From assembly GCF_000765475.1 (NCBI RefSeq), contig NZ_JRHO01000009.1, positions 248,001 to 312,000 on the forward strand: DNA of 64,000 nucleotides, given 5' to 3'. The translations under genes and the position numbers were made by a program. Each line of letters opens with the position of its first letter. The stretch's first letter is position 1. This document shows positions 6,681 through 64,000 of this stretch, piece after piece. This stretch comes from Methanococcoides methylutens. GTDB taxonomy: Archaea; Halobacteriota; Methanosarcinia; Methanosarcinales; Methanosarcinaceae. The notes beneath the pieces are model-generated. The model did not search any database. It was not told the DNA's origin and was given only the letters and a program-made list of their open reading frames with translations.

Positions 6681-8114
6681 ATGGTAAAATATGATGTCAT
6701 CGTGGTCGGAGCCGGCGCAAGCGGGCTGCTGACCGCACTTACATTATCCAAGCATGGCAAGAAAGTGCTCGTGCTTGAAAAGATGCATGATGTGGGGGGA
6801 AACTGCAACAGCTATACGGTAGATGGTTATCAGGTGGACACCGGTCCTCATGCTATCACTCATCTTGTAGAGGGGCCGCTCAGGCGCCTGATGGATAATT
6901 ATTTTGATTACCAGCCGGTCTTTGAGAACTATGGTCACTATTATGTGAGGACAGAGGACCGTTTCCTTAAGGTTCCATCCACTATCCGTGACTTCGTGAC
7001 CTTTGATGTGTTCCCAAGGCTTGATCGCCTTGCTATCACTCAGTCCATCACAAAGGCCCTTACTCTTTCCTCGTTCGGTGTCGATCTCTCAAGACAGTCT
7101 GTTTCTGACTCCCTTCCGGCAAATCTCTCAAAGGAGACCTATGAGTTTGCAGATGCGATCTCCTATTTCCTTTCAGGTCGCTCCATGAGTGAGACCTCTG
7201 CTCAGAGAGTACTTGCAGGCAGCAGTTTTGTCAGGGATAGTGTAACACAGGAGCAATTCGAGGAATTCATAAAAGAAGAGAAAGTACCACGCCCGGAGTC
7301 AATTCTCCAGTCCGTCCTGCCTTCGAATTTGCACACATCCCTTCATTCAAGGATCAACAATGTTTCCAGTCTTGGGAGGCTTGCGACCAACAAGGTCCAT
7401 GTATCCCAGGGCTATCCTCGTAAAGGGCTAAAGGCACTGCTTAATGCGATCCTTTATTCGCTTCCTTCATCTGTGGAGATCAAGACGGGGTGCAAGGTGG
7501 AGCGCATACTTACAAAGGAAGGGAAAGCATATGGTGTTGAAGCGGATACGATCTATGAGAGCGATCTTGTGATATACACAGGCTTTGCATCATCTTTACC
7601 ATCCCTTATGGAGGATCTGCCTTCATCATATCTGGAACTTCTGGATGGCATCGTTCATAGCAAAAGCCTTACTGTATGGCTGGGTCTTGACAGGGTCATG
7701 GATGAGTTCAATTACATGGGCTCAGAGATCTGGTTCAAGGACACCCCGTATTGGGCCATGCCAATCAGTAATTATGATGCATCTCTTGCTCCAAAGGACA
7801 AACAACTTGTTGGTTTTGCTTTCTTCCTTGATGAGAAAGAGGACATAAAAAAAGGAATAAAAAATGCTTATGAGACCATCTACAGTGCGATCCCTTCTAT
7901 ACAGGACCGCGTGGAAATGAACCACGATCAGTTACTTGTGCCCGAAAAGGCAGCAGTGACAATTGATGGTAAATTTGCTGATATCCGCTCCCCTGTTAAG
8001 AACCTGTACATTGCAGGAACGGATACTGACAAGCGCAGCATGGGTGTTACCCGAGCTGCTTATTCTGTCATTGAATTATTGAAAGTACTGAACGAGGACG
8101 GTAATCTTCACTGA
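6681..8114 (+). CDS. Phytoene desaturase-like FAD/NAD(P) oxidoreductase
   Basis: A 477-residue flavoprotein with an N-terminal dinucleotide-binding motif GAGASGLLTALTLSKHG, the GDxxG-like ending KMHDVGGNCNSY and VDTGPHAI, and a C-terminal ADIRSPVKNLYIAGTDTD FAD motif. This layout is that of the CrtI/amine-oxidase family (phytoene desaturase, carotenoid isomerase). Methanogens of this group have several such proteins, some proposed to act on isoprenoid lipids; the substrate is unknown. The gene starts seven bases after purC and ends immediately beside the convergent DUF47 gene. Confidence 0.75.
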   Translation: MVKYDVIVVGAGASGLLTALTLSKHGKKVLVLEKMHDVGGNCNSYTVDGYQVDTGPHAITHLVEGPLRRLMDNYFDYQPVFENYGHYYVRTEDRFLKVPSTIRDFVTFDVFPRLDRLAITQSITKALTLSSFGVDLSRQSVSDSLPANLSKETYEFADAISYFLSGRSMSETSAQRVLAGSSFVRDSVTQEQFEEFIKEEKVPRPESILQSVLPSNLHTSLHSRINNVSSLGRLATNKVHVSQGYPRKGLKALLNAILYSLPSSVEIKTGCKVERILTKEGKAYGVEADTIYESDLVIYTGFASSLPSLMEDLPSSYLELLDGIVHSKSLTVWLGLDRVMDEFNYMGSEIWFKDTPYWAMPISNYDASLAPKDKQLVGFAFFLDEKEDIKKGIKNAYETIYSAIPSIQDRVEMNHDQLLVPEKAAVTIDGKFADIRSPVKNLYIAGTDTDKRSMGVTRAAYSVIELLKVLNEDGNLH

Positions 8115-8804
8115 TTACCGTCTGAGTATCATTGTCCTTAGCCTGTCGGCTGCATGCTCTGCCTTGTCTGCGATATCTGCAATAGTACGCACAAGTTCTA
8201 CAAGGTGGAACACTCCCACAGCACCCAGCTCTTCTTCATGTGAGTATATCTCTTTGAGGAGATCTTTCTCGATGAGGTCTACTCTGTGCTCCATTTCTTC
8301 AATAGTAGGTACCAGTATCAGGGATTCTTCCACCTCACGTTTACTGAAGGACGTCTCCAGGAGCTCGCTTAATGAATCCACCAGCTTCTCGTATGCTTCG
8401 ACTGTCTCAAGTGTAAGTGCTGATAGCTCACAGAGTTTTGTTTTAATTGGGGCCGGCATATCGCAGGGTCTCAATGTCAATATAAATGCAGCTTCCTGTG
8501 CCACATCTGCAATGGAGTCCTGCGGCTTAAGGAAATTGAGCAGATCTTCTGCTTTTACAGGCAGCATAATGGAAGATGATAGCTGTCCCCTGATGGTCTG
8601 CTTAATGATGTCTGCCTCATGTTCGATACCGTCTATCTGATGGCTTAGCTCTTCCACAAGTGGCATGTTACTACAGTATGCATTGACTGCCTGGTCCAGT
8701 ATCCTTACGGTTTCCACTCCCTTGGATGCATGCAGGTAGAGTGGTTTGAATGGTGATCTTGCGAACACGTCAAGTACAGAACGTATGTATTCCATTTTCT
8801 TCAT
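8115..8804 (-). CDS. DUF47 phosphate-transport accessory protein (PhoU-like)
   Basis: About 229 residues, almost all helical, with PhoU-like metal-binding patterns: [22 protein letters not shown] near residue 50 and [19 protein letters not shown] in the second half. DUF47 proteins partner PiT phosphate transporters and are thought to regulate them. The start is ATG 8804, which overlaps the TGA of the upstream PiT gene as ATGA, with a G-rich ribosome-binding site just upstream; this overlap supports translational coupling. The coupled transporter is strong context for the assignment. Confidence 0.88.
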
Positions 8805-9841
8805 AATCCAACCCCCAATAATGCCACGAAGACAAGTGCCGATGTAAGTGCTGCAACAGGCACTGTGATGATCCATGACATAACGATCTTTCCTATAACA
8901 CTAAGATCAACAGCAGCAAGACCTCCTGCGAGTCCGACACCAATTACTGAGCCCACAAGGGTGTGGGTGGTGGAGATGGGCAGGGAACTATAGCTGTGAA
9001 GAACGACAACGGATGCAGTTGCAAATTCTGCTGAGAATCCCCTTGTAGGGGTAAGTTCGGTTATCTTTGTACCAATGGTCTCGATCACACGGTATCCCCA
9101 TGTTGCAAGTCCGATCACCATTCCTATAGCACCAACAATAAGTACCCATATAGGCACCGCTGCTTCTGCTAAGTTAAGTGCATTAAGACCTGCATAGAGT
9201 GGTCCAACAGCATTTGCAACATCGTTAGAACCATGTGCGAACGCAATGAAACAGGCGGTTCCGACCTGCAGAAATACGAACTTCTTCTCGATGTGGTACG
9301 GGTTCTCCGCTTTTTGCAGTAGTAGTACTCGGATAACTGAGAATATCAGATATGCCAATACAGCTCCCAGAACAGGAGATACCAGCCAGCTGCCTACGAT
9401 TTTCATCAGCACTGCCCAGTTGATGTCTGAGAGTAAAATAATGTCCTGGTATACTGCAACAATTCCAAATCCAAGGACAGCTCCTACGATAGAATGTGTT
9501 GTCGATACCGGCAGATTATAAAATGTAGCAAATGTGATCCAGAATCCTGCTGCAAGAATTGCTGCAAGCATCCCGATCGCCACAAGGTTCGGATCGATCG
9601 CCTTTATGGCATCAATGGGCACAATTCCTTTTGCAATGGTGGATGTGACCCTCTTTCCGAAGAAAACAGCTCCGACAAACTCAAAGACACCAGCTACTAT
9701 AATTACCTGTTTGAGTGAGAGCGCTCCGCTTCCAACCGATGTTCCCATAGCATTAGCAAGGTCATTGGCCCCTATGTTCCAGGCCATATAAAGACCTGCG
9801 AGCACTAATAAAACCACAATTGGGTTGAATAATTCTATCAT
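8801..9841 (-). CDS. PiT-family inorganic phosphate transporter
   Basis: About 346 residues with around ten hydrophobic segments. The two duplicated PiT signatures are visible: [23 protein letters not shown] near the N-terminus and [20 protein letters not shown] in the second half, plus the paired [16 protein letters not shown] and [16 protein letters not shown] repeats. PiT carriers import phosphate, often as metal-phosphate, with a cation. ATG 9841 is chosen since AGGAAG lies a few bases upstream; an ATG nine codons earlier is in frame. It forms a two-gene unit with the DUF47 gene. Confidence 0.95.
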
Positions 9842-48834: not shown

Positions 48835-49203
48835 TCATAATCCGTCTACAAATATGCCTATTCTGTCAATAGCTTCCTTAATATCTTCCCTTGATGCTGC
48901 ATAGGCACAGCGAAGGAATCCTGCTCCGGTATCGCCGAAGATATCTCCTGGAATTGTTACAACGTTCTGCTCTTGAAGCAGCCTTTCTGCAAATTCGTCA
49001 GATGTCAGCCCTGTGCTCTTGATGGATGGGAATGCATAGAATGCTCCTTTTGGGTTGAAGCAATCCAGTCCTATATCGTTCAATCCTCCAACGATGAGCT
49101 TCCTGCGCCTGTCGTACTCCCGGACCATTTTGCTAACTTCTTCCTCTCCGTTGCGAAGTGCTTCGATAGCACCAACCTGTGCTGTGATAAGGAATTTAAT
49201 GCT
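48835..49203 (-). pseudogene. Aminotransferase class I, C-terminal remnant cut by the integrated element
   Basis: The minus-strand frame is open from a TAA at 49204 to the TGA at 48835. The product ends like alanine/aspartate aminotransferases: ITAQVGAIEALRNGEEEVSKM, YDRRRKLIVGGLNDIG, NPKGAFYAFPSIK, FAERLLQEQNVVTIPGDIFGD and FLRCAYA with the conserved substrate-binding Arg. About three quarters of the usual 380-400 residues, including the PLP lysine, are missing. Homology stops at about 49190, where the sequence becomes AT-rich, and the integrase gene follows. The missing 5' part should lie at the other end of the element, outside the window. Confidence 0.85.
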
Positions 49204-49278: not shown

Positions 49279-50127
49279 ATGCCTTCAAATCCAATGAGAA
49301 ATCTAAGTGAGTATGTGAAGTATGATGATTATTTGAAAATGGAGAAAGCTGCCAAGGATTTTGAGAATAATGGGAGATTGAAGAAAGTGATGAGAGGTTC
49401 TTATCAGTTGTTAATTAGACTTTTATTCTTTACTGGGGCGAGAATATCTGAAATTGTTGGAACACCAGGTGGACTTGTCACAAAGTGCATGTATCCACCA
49501 TTTGACCAGAAAAAACGTATGTGTCCTAAATGGGGTAAGGTTGGGGATGATAGTGCTTGTATTGATAGCGAATGCAAATATTTCCGAACTCATGTCTTAA
49601 AGGCACATCATGGAATCCGTGTGAAAGATGTTCTGTTCGAAGACCGTTTGATTGCAATTTATGGAAAGAATGTAAAATCCAAAGAACTGAAGCCAAGAAC
49701 AGTAGTTATTGATGAAGAAACATTGAATTTGATAAAGGTGCACATTGAAAAATATTCCTTAAAATCGAATGATAAAATCATTAACACAAATACTGAAGGC
49801 ACTAAAGCTTTCATATCAAGGATTGGAAAAAAGATAGGTTTACCTTGGATTTCTGCTCACAAGTTCAGACATGGGCATGCAATTTTTTGCATCCAGAACG
49901 GTATGGACATAAGAACTTTGCAGCAACAACTTGGACATTCAAATTTAGGTACTACAGCAATATATCTACAGTTTGCTATTGACGATAGAAAGAAGGTTTA
50001 CGATAAAGTTTTCAATCCAAAACCAAATCGGGTAAAGGTTCAATGTCCCAGTTGTGGATTCACTTTCAAATTAAAGAAAAACAGAGATATCGAATTTGAG
50101 GACAAGCTGAGAACAATTTTTGATTGA
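49279..50127 (+). CDS. Tyrosine recombinase (integrase) of the integrated element
   Basis: A 282-residue tyrosine recombinase. The catalytic set is visible: Arg in FTGARISEIVG near residue 52, HKFRHGHAI (His-x-x-Arg) near 195, the GHSN histidine and the nucleophile Tyr in TTAIYLQFA near 235. A cysteine-containing insert (CMYPPFDQKKRMCPKW, CIDSECKYF) follows the first Arg, and the C-terminus has CPSCGFTFKLK, suggesting zinc binding. It is the boundary gene of the element; GAGGTGA precedes the ATG. It probably catalyses integration and excision at the adjacent repeats. Confidence 0.92.
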   Translation: MPSNPMRNLSEYVKYDDYLKMEKAAKDFENNGRLKKVMRGSYQLLIRLLFFTGARISEIVGTPGGLVTKCMYPPFDQKKRMCPKWGKVGDDSACIDSECKYFRTHVLKAHHGIRVKDVLFEDRLIAIYGKNVKSKELKPRTVVIDEETLNLIKVHIEKYSLKSNDKIINTNTEGTKAFISRIGKKIGLPWISAHKFRHGHAIFCIQNGMDIRTLQQQLGHSNLGTTAIYLQFAIDDRKKVYDKVFNPKPNRVKVQCPSCGFTFKLKKNRDIEFEDKLRTIFD

Positions 50128-58500: not shown

Positions 58501-59052
58501 TCAAAAATACCCATCAAGTGAAGGAGTCGGAGGTAGCTCTTCACGCCAATATTCAACTGGATAACCTGATGAGCCTTGACACTTTACATACATGTTTAAA
58601 CATAACGTAGTAGGTGTCAACGTAATAGAAAAAGAACCATCATAATCAAGATTAGCCATAGAAGTATCATTCACACTAGTAAATGTTACTAACCCAAGCG
58701 ATTCCAAATGGCGTATTATACGGTCTGTTTCTTGCACATGCACATCTTCAAATCCAGAAATTGTTTGTAAAATATTCATATCAATGTCAATACTATACGC
58801 GTAAATCAAACTGTCCTTTTCCCAACCTTTCTTTGTGTGATTAAATAGATAATTAACTAAGGCAACCTCAGAAGAGGTCAATTTCGACAATAAATCGATG
58901 TATATCAGATTGCTCTCATCCTTTCCATCTGGTGTACAACTCGAAGCTAAAAGACCTGCCCACATTTTTTGAACGTCTTTATCATCAATAAATGAACCTT
59001 CTTCCAGAATCTTATATACAAGATGTGGTGGTGCTGATAAACCGTCTATAGC
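58501..59052 (-). pseudogene. DUF4393 (Abi-alpha-like) protein, N-terminally truncated
   Basis: The open frame after a TGA at 59053-59055 encodes AIDGLSAPPHLVYKILEEG, then DVQKMWAGLLASSCTPDGK, NLIYIDLLSKLTSSEVALVNYL and a C-terminal domain ending PTPSLDGYF. This matches the C-terminal two thirds of DUF4393 proteins, related to abortive-infection factors. The usual N-terminal 100 or so residues are missing and no start codon lies before the Met of MWAGLL (58965). It may be a remnant or may start at that internal ATG. Confidence 0.6.
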
Positions 59053-59675: not shown

Positions 59676-59807
59676 GGCTCTGTAGAAATCCTCAATATCC
59701 AAGCACAAATTAAGAAATATAATAATTCAAGAAGTACTTTCCGTTACTGAATATATTTGTCATTTTCAACCTATAGATAGCGATTTTAATAGGTTTTCTA
59801 CAGACCC
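59676..59807. mobile_element. Small insertion with terminal inverted repeats (MITE-like)
   Basis: GGCTCTGTAGAAATCCT at 59676-59692 and AGGTTTTCTACAGACCC at 59791-59807 are inverted repeats (about 15 of 17 matching). A third copy, GGCTCTGTAGAAAACCT, lies at 57184-57200. ATCT occurs one base outside each end, a possible target duplicate. It contains no transposase gene. It has cut the gene to its right, whose homology stops at its end. Confidence 0.55.
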
Positions 59808-59957
59808 CATCTTTTTTTCTCTTGAATCAAAAGAAAGACGCATTCCAACTGCATCACCAAGAATGTCAATGTTATCGGCAAGCCATGGTGTAAATTTTGA
59901 TGCTTCATTTTCCCACATATCTCTGAGTGGTACTGTTTCAATTTTGCCAATTTTCAT
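59766..59957 (-). pseudogene. DUF4268-type nuclease, truncated by the small insertion
   Basis: The 63-residue frame starts MKIGKIETVPLRDMW, KFTPWLADNIDILGDAVGMRLSF, the usual N-terminus of stand-alone DUF4268-type predicted endonucleases. It then runs into the inverted-repeat element (GSVENLLKSLSIG) instead of the usual nuclease core. AAGGAAATGAT precedes the ATG and the gene follows ORF108 in the operon, so it was probably the last operon gene before being cut. It is likely non-functional. Confidence 0.55.
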
Positions 59958-59985
59958 ATCATTTCCTTCTTTTAAATCTCAGTAG

Positions 59986-60312
59986 TTATTGGATAATAAA
60001 TTCGATAGTCCCTCTCTTGCTTCCTTTGGCAGCATATTCTTCATCAACCAATATGGCACCAACATATGATGCGATTGCAGTTTTTGTGACATTTTCTTGC
60101 AACCATTTACCGACACTGCCTTTAGGGGCTTTGTCTCTTGAAGTTCCAATGTTTACAGATTTGCCTTTAAAATGATGAAGCAATTGAGAAAATTGCTCAG
60201 AAGATACTTTAATGATTCCAGGTTTCTTACCATAGTAAATGGTAGTCCCATCCGCAACTGAACCTTCATATTTAAAATTGCTTATTCCACCCCAAGTTTT
60301 TAATGATTTCAT
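59986..60312 (-). CDS. 108-residue protein of the RNase III-like operon, unknown
   Basis: A protein with MKSLKTWGGISNFKYEGSV, YYGKKPGIIKVSSEQFSQLLHHFKGK, TSRDKAPKGSVGKWLQENVTKTAIASYVGAILVDEEY and a final GTIEFIIQ. I recall similar hypothetical proteins in bacteria, but I cannot name the family. GAGGATG precedes the ATG. It is the third gene of a four-gene minus-strand operon and may belong to a nuclease-type system. Confidence 0.6.
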   Translation of the reverse strand: MKSLKTWGGISNFKYEGSVADGTTIYYGKKPGIIKVSSEQFSQLLHHFKGKSVNIGTSRDKAPKGSVGKWLQENVTKTAIASYVGAILVDEEYAAKGSKRGTIEFIIQ

Positions 60313-60330
60313 GTCATCCTCACTGTAAAA

Positions 60331-60747
60331 TTAAAAATCACACTCAAATTCGCCAATAACCTTTCCTTCCTTGCGAATGGAACTACGAGTAACCATCATT
60401 GTAGTACGTGAAGCTCTTTCATTGGCTCTTGATGGTTTCATATGTTCCTTGTACCAATTGAAAGAAACTCTATAGATTGTGTAGTGATGAAGATTTTGCG
60501 ATGATTTGTTTTTATCCTCAAATGTTGCAATGATTGCTTGAACGGTCTCAAGTACGTTAATGGTAACTCCGATGGAAGATGTATTTTTATGAGCAGATTT
60601 CAGAATGACCCTTTCTCCATCATATATTGCTTCATTACTTCCGGTTCCCGTCTCTAACAACTGTGTACCCAAACGTTTTGCAACATGTTCCCCCATACGA
60701 TGTCCAAAATTATTCCCTGCTTGACCAGTTTCAGGCGTTTGTCCCAT
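60331..60747 (-). CDS. 138-residue protein of the RNase III-like operon, possible nuclease
   Basis: It begins MGQTPETGQAGNNFGHRMGEH and contains RLGTQLLETGTGSNEAIYDG, ERVILKSAHKNTSSIGVT and IYRVSFNWYKEHMKP, ending EGKVIGEFECDF. The GERVILKSA strand is reminiscent of restriction-endonuclease folds, but I see no clear D-(D/E)xK triad, so this is only a suggestion. GAGGTGG lies six bases before the ATG and ten bases after the RNase III-like gene, so they are one operon. Confidence 0.5.
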   Translation of the reverse strand: MGQTPETGQAGNNFGHRMGEHVAKRLGTQLLETGTGSNEAIYDGERVILKSAHKNTSSIGVTINVLETVQAIIATFEDKNKSSQNLHHYTIYRVSFNWYKEHMKPSRANERASRTTMMVTRSSIRKEGKVIGEFECDF

Positions 60748-60756
60748 GATGCCACC

Positions 60757-61212
60757 TCATTCCTTTAAAACGTACATTTTTGCCAGACGCTTTGCTTCAC
60801 CAAGACCCCTTGTAAGATAAACAGCACCGAATAGGGCTTCAAATGCTTCAGCATTAGGTGTTATGTCATCCACTTCAAATGTTTGATTCTGAATGTCCAT
60901 ATATTCGAGAACTTTTAATTCTATGGCAATTGGTGCAAAGTTCTCATCCTGTTCAATGCCAAGTTTTGTTTCTGTGCCTTTTGCCTTATCAGAGAGCTGA
61001 CCTTTTGCCCAATCAGGATGTTGTTCATAGAGATGTTCACGGATTATCAAACGAAGGACAGAATCACCTATAAATGCAAGTCTCTGATTGTGATTTACTA
61101 ATGAACCGTTGCTGCTGTGAGTAAGTGCAAGCTTGTATGTTTCCAATTCTTTATCTGTGAATTCGGAATCATCACCCAAGAATTTGTGCATAAATTTGAT
61201 AATTTGTTCCAT
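60757..61212 (-). CDS. RNase III-fold protein with altered catalytic residues
   Basis: A 151-residue protein with only an RNase III domain and no double-stranded-RNA-binding domain. The signature helix reads NQRLAFIGDSVLRLIIREHL; the second motif is EAFEALFGAVYLTRG. Compared with bacterial RNase III (NxRLEFLGD and D-x-x-E), the first Glu is Ala (residue 46), Asp50 and Glu125 are kept and the second Asp is Glu122. That is a changed metal site. ATG 61212 is chosen; the frame is open 23 codons further up. It heads a four-gene operon. RNase III is uncommon in archaea. Confidence 0.7.
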   Translation of the reverse strand: MEQIIKFMHKFLGDDSEFTDKELETYKLALTHSSNGSLVNHNQRLAFIGDSVLRLIIREHLYEQHPDWAKGQLSDKAKGTETKLGIEQDENFAPIAIELKVLEYMDIQNQTFEVDDITPNAEAFEALFGAVYLTRGLGEAKRLAKMYVLKE

Positions 61213-61328
61213 GAAATCGCTCTCTTTAAATTTGAAAATATTTTCAGAAATAATATATACAATAATAATATTATAACCCATCAGTAATTTAATTTACATA
61301 TAACTAAAATTGGTGTGTGTAGTTAAAA

Positions 61329-61949
61329 ATGAAGATATGCAACAAATGTGAAATAAAATATCCAGATACGAATTTGTTTTGTAACAAATGTCATAGTTTA
61401 CTTCAGCTTCAGAAGGTTGTTACAGACTCAAAATCAAAAAAACAAATTGATGTTGGCACCATCCTTTCTGAAAAAAAGAAAACAAAACTCGATAAACCAA
61501 TATCAAAGGATATTGGCATCTCTGAAATTCCTATTTATGATGATTGGGAACCACCAGCTGCAACTACAGTTTATAGCAAAATGAAAAACATTCCTTATGG
61601 TGTTTTAAAATATAATTTAAGTAAAGGTTTATACACAATTGGGATTGGACAAATTAGGTCTTACCTCGATGACCGTACCTATAGTTGTAAAAGTTGTTCT
61701 TATTATACTAGTTTTGATTATGAATTGTGTTCATTGAAGGAAGCAAAGGTCAAATCTAATGCTATTTGTAAATCATTTGAAGTATCACCAGAGTTTCAAG
61801 TATCCTTAGATTCTACTAATAAAAAAGAGAAAGATAATGAAAATGTAAAAGAAAAGAAGAAGAAGAGGAAAACATTCTATTGTTGTATATGCAATAAGGC
61901 ATTTCATACTGAAGAAGGGAGAAAACGTCATCTAAATGCTAAACACTAA
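61329..61949 (+). CDS. Zinc-ribbon and C2H2 zinc-finger protein
   Basis: A 206-residue protein. An N-terminal zinc ribbon CNKCEIKYPDTNLFCNKC, a middle cysteine cluster CKSCSYYTSFDYELC with a later C, and a C-terminal C2H2 finger YCCICNKAFHTEEGRKRHLNAKH are seen; basic linkers separate them (KEKKKKRKTF). C2H2 fingers of this kind are common in archaeal viruses and plasmids, where they bind DNA. It is divergent from the RNase III-like gene; the 115 bases between carry AT-rich promoter sequences. Confidence 0.75.
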   Translation: MKICNKCEIKYPDTNLFCNKCHSLLQLQKVVTDSKSKKQIDVGTILSEKKKTKLDKPISKDIGISEIPIYDDWEPPAATTVYSKMKNIPYGVLKYNLSKGLYTIGIGQIRSYLDDRTYSCKSCSYYTSFDYELCSLKEAKVKSNAICKSFEVSPEFQVSLDSTNKKEKDNENVKEKKKKRKTFYCCICNKAFHTEEGRKRHLNAKH

Positions 61950-63250: not shown

Positions 63251-64000
63251 TCACTCTTCATAATCGGGTGTTGGTTTGCTCATTTTTCCAATTTCTTCCA
63301 AGCAAACTTCAAGAGCATGTTTTTCTTTCTTATTTAAAAGGATATAATTTGAAGATTCTTTTATCAGTATTATCCTTTCTTTTATATTATCCAGCCCTGT
63401 AATTTCTTTCAATGCATCAACATTAATCTTATCGGTAACTTCCGATAAATAATTTGTAATAGTATGGCTATAGCTCTTTGTCATCATGCTTGCTATTAGC
63501 TTTGGCAATGCAACGTCATTTGAAACTATGTTTTGCATGAACTCTTCATGTGGATAATCACTATTCCATTGTTTCCACAGGATAAGAATAGTATATATGT
63601 GAGTGGATTCTATTAAAGTTCCATTTTCTGCCCATCTTCGAATTTTATCACAAGCTAACTTTTCCAACCTTTGAAGTTGTTCTAAATTTATCAGTTGTTG
63701 TTCTTCAGGAATATCAGGTTCTTTATAGTCATACTTGCCATGTTTTTCGTTTTGTAAATCAATTTCCCATACAAATGTGTATAGACTATTATGTGTATTA
63801 TTGATGCTCCTTTCTAAAATATTAAATCGTTCTTCTTGAGTTTCAATTTGCTCAAGTAGTGAAGAAATAATCCAATGAATCTTCAACGAAGTCCCATAAA
63901 ATATAGATTCATCTTCAGGGAATGAATCGCCAACTTCCATAATTGCATTAACTAAGCTTTCAATGTTATCAGCAGGTATTTTGTCAGTGTAATCGGGGAA
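63251..64000 (-). CDS. KAP-type P-loop NTPase, C-terminal part
   Basis: The frame is open across the window end and ends at 63251, leaving 249 residues. The segment FYGTSLKIHWIISSLLEQI, LERSINNTHNSLYTFVWEIDLQNEKHG and LEKLACDKIRRWAENGTLIES resembles the C-terminal helical part of KAP-family NTPases, some of which are in bacterial defence islands. The Walker motifs would lie beyond the window. The assignment rests on recall of family sequences and needs confirmation. Confidence 0.6.
   Translation of the reverse strand, partial: FPDYTDKIPADNIESLVNAIMEVGDSFPEDESIFYGTSLKIHWIISSLLEQIETQEERFNILERSINNTHNSLYTFVWEIDLQNEKHGKYDYKEPDIPEEQQLINLEQLQRLEKLACDKIRRWAENGTLIESTHIYTILILWKQWNSDYPHEEFMQNIVSNDVALPKLIASMMTKSYSHTITNYLSEVTDKINVDALKEITGLDNIKERIILIKESSNYILLNKKEKHALEVCLEEIGKMSKPTPDYEE

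Follow-up and report, generated by a model that had tools for sequence, protein, structure and literature searches.

An RNase III-like protein without a dsRNA-binding domain and with an altered active site in the cargo of an archaeal mobile element

Introduction

What does an RNase III-like protein with a changed active site do on a mobile element of a methanogenic archaeon, and does it work together with the three genes that follow it? An initial annotation of this locus suggested that the four genes form a defence or RNA-processing system of the element, which is possibly decaying. Our analysis concerns a window of 64,000 nucleotides, by which we mean the whole stretch of DNA that was analysed, and the following features in it or next to it.

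60757–61212, minus strand: gene 1, RNase III-like protein of 151 aa, first in the operon
60331–60747, minus strand: gene 2, basic protein of 138 aa, no known family
59986–60312, minus strand: gene 3, basic protein of 108 aa, no known family
59766–59957, minus strand: gene 4, 63-aa remnant of a DUF4268-type protein, with a match to PADLOC PDC-S11
49279–50127, plus strand: tyrosine recombinase (integrase), PF00589 at 7.4e-19
48835–49188, no strand: left 354-bp direct repeat, 98% identical to the right copy
69693–70046 in window coordinates, beyond the window: right 354-bp direct repeat, in the 3′ end of an aminotransferase gene

Results

The operon and the element that carries it

The tight operon described at 59766–61212 is correctly placed. 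All four genes lie on the same strand, separated by gaps of only 9, 18 and 28 bp (genes 1–2, 2–3 and 3–4). An alternative start of gene 1, an ATG further upstream at 61281, would extend its protein to 174 aa.

The four genes are cargo of an integrated mobile element. The element is about 20.9 kb long and runs from 48835 to the end of the window at 64000 and on to coordinate 70046 (locus L130). It is bracketed by the two repeats, which correspond to the 3′ end of an aminotransferase gene (PF00155); the integrase adjoins the left repeat, and the uninterrupted, empty site is found in three relatives (G001, G005 and G004). Within the window, the element has a GC content of 33% and the flank one of 45%. 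At the right end of the element the host aminotransferase gene was rebuilt by the integrase. Other possible defence cargo lies at 58501–58965 of the window and at 1252–6115 of L130, with matches to Abi_alpha (covering part of the family only), a KAP P-loop NTPase and Hypoth_Ymh (PF09509).

Gene 1 has an RNase III domain with a conserved, altered active site

That the lead protein has an RNase III fold is borne out by profile searches. It belongs to the RNase III superfamily (PF00636/PF14622), with matches to PF14622 at 7.8e-19 and PF00636 at 4.5e-14, both above cut-off (68.6 and 53.5 bits against 35 and 27). A profile search of the PDB matched Drosha, Campylobacter jejuni RNase III and others, with a best value of 3.7e-27; the best bacterial match is C. 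jejuni RNase III (3o2r, 1.7e-22). Single-sequence structure predictions were of unusably low confidence for gene 1 (P0001, pLDDT 40) as well as for gene 2 (P0002, pLDDT 43). As annotated, a dsRNA-binding domain (dsRBD) is absent: a profile scan found none in the 151 residues. With TIGR02191, the equivalog of canonical ribonuclease III, which has a C-terminal dsRBD, the protein scores 75.9 bits, well below the cut-off of 166.25.

The changes in the active site are also real. Instead of the canonical set E41/D45/D114/E117 (E. coli numbering) the protein, which is acidic (pI 5.0), reads A, D, E, E: A46 replaces E41 and E122 replaces D114, whereas D50 (D45) and E125 (E117) are kept. A pairwise alignment with Drosha, with numbering mapped by hand, additionally places Q43 at E38 and K70 at E65.

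How widespread are these changes? We examined the catalytic positions across the open reading frames with an RNase III domain in the retrieved loci and built a tree of 66 proteins with an arbitrary root. Gene 1 falls into a clade of 11 archaeal proteins (support 98/93) from Methanosarcinaceae and other families of the same phylum, and all 11 read A-D-E-E. A second clade without E41 has 13 rows (support 100/99), mostly 145–165 aa long, with Q, R, S, C or A in place of E41 and, in most cases, E in place of D114. Wherever there is sequence to compare, both clades keep D45 and E117. In this tree the two clades do not group as sisters, but with its root being arbitrary, a single origin of both is possible.

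As far as sequences can tell, the altered site of gene 1 is a maintained state and not a sign of decay, because it is fixed in the 11-protein clade, dN/dS is low (0.17 against G005, 0.23 against G051) and D45 and E117 are kept. A decaying RNase III was rejected on these grounds, dN/dS and conservation across the clade. The suspicion of decay therefore does not hold for the active site, where the Mini-III enzymes have the same Ala; it does hold for the truncated DUF4268 gene.

Within the genus the gene 1 clade is present in 3 of 11 genomes (the window, G005 and, as a fragment, G009), and with so patchy a distribution gene 1 cannot count as a housekeeping gene. No other RNase III domain was found in its genome; a heterodimer that pairs gene 1 with a canonical RNase III of that cell was rejected for lack of such a partner. 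Neither the gene 1 protein nor its clade was found in viral contigs, and tblastn in plasmids and phages gave matches of 26–35% identity, the annotated ones being ordinary RNase III.

Reviews describe RNase III as absent from archaea (PMC8708148) or as present in very few of them (PMC5303251), and the initial annotation likewise called it rare. Our count contrasts with these statements, and for this phylum rarity fails: RNase III domains occur in 126 of 393 genomes (E ≤ 1e-5), some of which are fragmented assemblies with possible contamination, while others are single-contig genomes.

Several individual loci deserve mention. In one clade member the C-terminal part is a DUF7669 domain (G128, L034 9384–10097, 5.4e-8). 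In G005, RNase III-like genes of both E41-less clades lie about 5 kb apart (L032 7073–7546 and 12194–12628), in an island that also holds PLD/NgoFVII-like, BglII-like and Mrr-type genes. At three further loci (L036 8864–12367, L038 449–2798 and L040 7228–10116) E41-less RNase III-like genes lie upstream of related copies of a cluster of glycosyltransferase–radical-SAM-like type, which in L036 and L040 also includes a small P-loop kinase-like gene; these cluster names were assigned by reading the sequences. The RNase III-like genes there are of two dissimilar types, about 30% identical, and both are present in G112.

Gene 2 recurs behind different genes

The two middle genes had been called unrecognised, and so they are. 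For gene 2 there was no match beyond chance in Pfam, NCBIfam, PHROG or PADLOC, nothing significant in a PDB profile search, and no match in plasmids and viral contigs; the sole match in genome contigs (L031) looks like chance. Relatives occur in 10 of 150 relatives and in 7 of 393 genomes across the phylum. Among the genomes searched they are confined to a single family (f1), which we take to be the Methanosarcinaceae. The protein is basic (pI 9.1) and has a dN/dS of 0.33 against G008. Its relatives share an invariant SNE and a later Lys, and we considered a degenerate PD-(D/E)XK nuclease as a candidate identity.

The gene that precedes gene 2 varies from genome to genome, usually at a gap of about 9–20 bp. 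It encodes a SIR2-like protein in G045, G084 and G017, a PD-(D/E)XK_4/PDC-S26 protein in G008 and, in G077, a protein whose C-terminal part weakly matches DdmE (5.9e-5). In the window and in G051 it is the RNase III-like gene, with the same 9-bp gap. In G015 the order is HsdM, an RNase III-like gene of the second clade and then, 216 bp on, gene 2. No recognisable effector partner precedes gene 2 in G047 or at the second site in G084.

Gene 2 may be the most unusual part of the operon. It could be an adaptor shared by interchangeable effectors (SIR2, PD-(D/E)XK, DdmE-like and RNase III-like proteins of two clades) in a modular defence of Methanosarcinaceae, in which the Mini-III-type RNase III would be the antiviral effector that senses or cuts dsRNA. 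We regard this idea as doubtful. The pattern offers a testable candidate for an adaptor common to different effectors.

A zinc-ribbon/zinc-finger gene lies beside the operon (61329–61949), and a copy with 80% DNA identity is found near gene 2 in G008 (L055 8638–9282). Its presence at both places suggests a shared site for exchangeable modules.

Genes 3 and 4

Gene 3 likewise has no match beyond chance in Pfam, NCBIfam, PHROG or PADLOC, and none in plasmids or (alignment A4) viral contigs. Its protein has a pI of 9.7, and dN/dS is 0.18 against G009 (dN 0.106, dS 0.595). Two larger proteins of G045 have a C-terminal domain that is related to it. In G009 gene 3 contains an in-frame TAG and lies before an intact DUF4268 gene.

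That intact gene makes clear what gene 4 once was. Its 312-aa product (PF14088, DUF4268, 3.1e-29) is 81% identical to residues 1–52 of gene 4. The truncation reported for gene 4 is evident: it retains only the first 52 or so residues of a protein of about 312 aa, matching PADLOC PDC-S11, a candidate single-gene defence system, at 2.9e-17 over residues 2–52 (profile positions 4–56 of 318). Whereas the homologue in G009 matches PDC-S11 over its entire length, the 63-aa gene 4 product lacks the DUF4268 domain (homologue residues 169–303), and a search of the window for the remainder of the homologue gave no convincing match. The DUF4268 gene is clearly decayed, and it is the only one of the four that is. 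In G009, a gene 2 remnant, gene 3 and the intact DUF4268 gene (L062, about 7461–9188) begin some 100 bp away from a tRNA-Ile gene, a possible integration site.

Neighbourhood and the link to defence

Does the operon as a whole recur? The recurrence of the gene order had been proposed as a check, and the full four-gene set is absent from all relatives searched; only subsets recur. DNA matches to sister species stop close to the borders of genes 1 and 2, so that, with its neighbours reshuffled in this way, the operon resembles a row of interchangeable cassettes. The four-gene operon is not a defined system.

Short relatives of the RNase III gene adjoin HsdM, PLD/NgoFVII-like, VRR-NUC, GmrSD, TPR and AAA defence genes. 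At 7 of 24 E41-less loci the gene directly upstream is a restriction or defence gene, compared with about 3 of 36 loci with a canonical RNase III (one-sided Fisher p = 0.04, or 0.017 with a control count of two); counts were made partly by eye, loci were chosen non-randomly and related loci are not independent, so the modest excess, and with it the link between E41-less RNase III and defence genes, is suggestive only. Among 10 control neighbours that were scanned, one, Cas1, matched PADLOC. In G047 (L063 6611–7682), a C-terminal fragment of Cas1 is immediately followed by an RNase III gene that keeps E41. Several members of the gene 1 clade have no defence neighbour.

Of the proposal that this is a defence or RNA-processing system of the element, two parts stand, the cargo status and the defence or restriction neighbours elsewhere, and the fixed four-gene system does not. 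A defence role of gene 1 is plausible but unproven.

Discussion

How is gene 1 best explained? The reading we favour, though tentatively and with somewhat less than an even chance, is that gene 1 encodes a dsRBD-free RNase III that arrived at the Mini-III layout independently, along its own route. It would be a partner-dependent, homodimeric dsRNA endonuclease, carried by the mobile element as cargo against viruses or competing elements. With Ala at E41 and Glu at D114, its metal site would consist mainly of D45 and E117. We infer a homodimer that cuts dsRNA; that the genome holds a single RNase III domain argues for the homodimer. Substrate choice would be set by partner proteins, and the basic gene 2 protein may help or target gene 1. 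An L3-like role for the gene 2 protein is our guess.

It is also conceivable that gene 1 encodes a pseudo-nuclease that has been conserved: a dimer with the RNase III fold that would bind dsRNA or a partner protein without cutting, like the non-catalytic KREPB subunits of the trypanosome editosome. Proteins whose RNase III domain is not catalytic and which act in regulation or as structural components are known (PMC12936278), and the equivalents of E38, E41 and E65 have all lost their acidic residue; together with a sequence nearer to class I, these replacements make a loss of activity possible. However, D45 and E117 are kept throughout the clade, the replacement at D114 is still acidic, and the active Mini-III family likewise does without Glu at E41. 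Furthermore, the pseudo-subunits of the editosome have a catalytic RNase III as their partner, whereas this genome has no other RNase III domain. Overall, we consider a pseudo-nuclease rather unlikely. Since Mini-III enzymes, with Ala at E41, Thr at D114 and no dsRBD, are active, an active Mini-III-like, dsRBD-free dsRNA endonuclease appears more likely than a dead enzyme.

One could also argue that the four genes have no joint function at all, and that they were acquired independently, are co-transcribed by chance and have partly decayed as a group. In the genomes searched the genes recur singly or in smaller sets and not as the full set, matches to sister-species DNA end near gene borders, and gene 4 is a remnant. 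Yet the gene 1–gene 2 pair recurs in G051 with an identical gap, the gene before gene 2 in G015 is again RNase III-like, albeit from the other clade and 216 bp away, and genes 1–3 are under purifying selection, which makes mere chance assembly unlikely. Improbable, in our view, is an enzyme that processes rRNA or element transcripts in the manner of Mini-III and has no part in defence. Mini-III matures 23S rRNA (PMC8708148), and some clade members lack a defence neighbour, but gene 1 is patchily distributed in the genus and sits on an integrated element.

Whatever its exact role, the phylum harbours two separate dsRBD-free, E41-less clades, some of whose members lie beside restriction or defence genes. 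If these proteins are active, RNase III-type dsRNA cleavage would have been recruited for conflict in archaea, and E41 would have become dispensable more than once.

Comparison with known RNase III proteins

Gene 1 has the same domain as the class I RNases III of E. coli (Rnc) and C. jejuni, but it lacks the dsRBD, E41 and D114 are replaced, and the positions of E38 and E65 are neutral or basic. In the structure of the E. coli enzyme, MgA is bound by E41 and E117 and MgB by D45 and E117, and D114 makes no direct contact with a metal (PMC9291653). E. coli E41A and D114A enzymes are weak in vitro, whereas E117K/A/Q are inactive (PMC8708148). Loss of D45 or E117, the two residues that gene 1 keeps, harms the E. 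coli enzyme most (PMC8708148, PMC3839596).

The bacterial Mini-III/MrnC (class 4 RNase III) is similar to gene 1 in layout. Both are lone RNase III domains without a dsRBD, both have Ala at E41 and retain D45 and E117, and D114 is replaced in both. All four Mini-III sequences in the PDB (1u61, 4oun, 6tnn and 2gsl), which were retrieved with short Mini-III-like peptides as queries, the matches being the PDB's own sequences, carry Ala in place of E41 and Thr in place of D114; in 6tnn, D45 is mutated to Asn. Mini-III enzymes cleave dsRNA. The B. subtilis enzyme loses its activity through the catalytic-centre substitution E106Q, and efficient cleavage of pre-rRNA by Mini-III requires ribosomal protein L3, possibly as a substitute for an RNA-binding domain (PMC5141509).

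In other respects gene 1 departs from Mini-III. It has Glu instead of Thr at D114, carries the class I HSS stretch, and is archaeal and located on a mobile element. Its profile scores class I RNase III and Drosha well above Mini-III: profile A3 reaches 83.4 bits with 3o2r versus 26.7 bits with the Mini-III structure 2gsl. Because its overall sequence is nearer to class I than to Mini-III, we do not class gene 1 as a Mini-III, even though it has the Mini-III layout.
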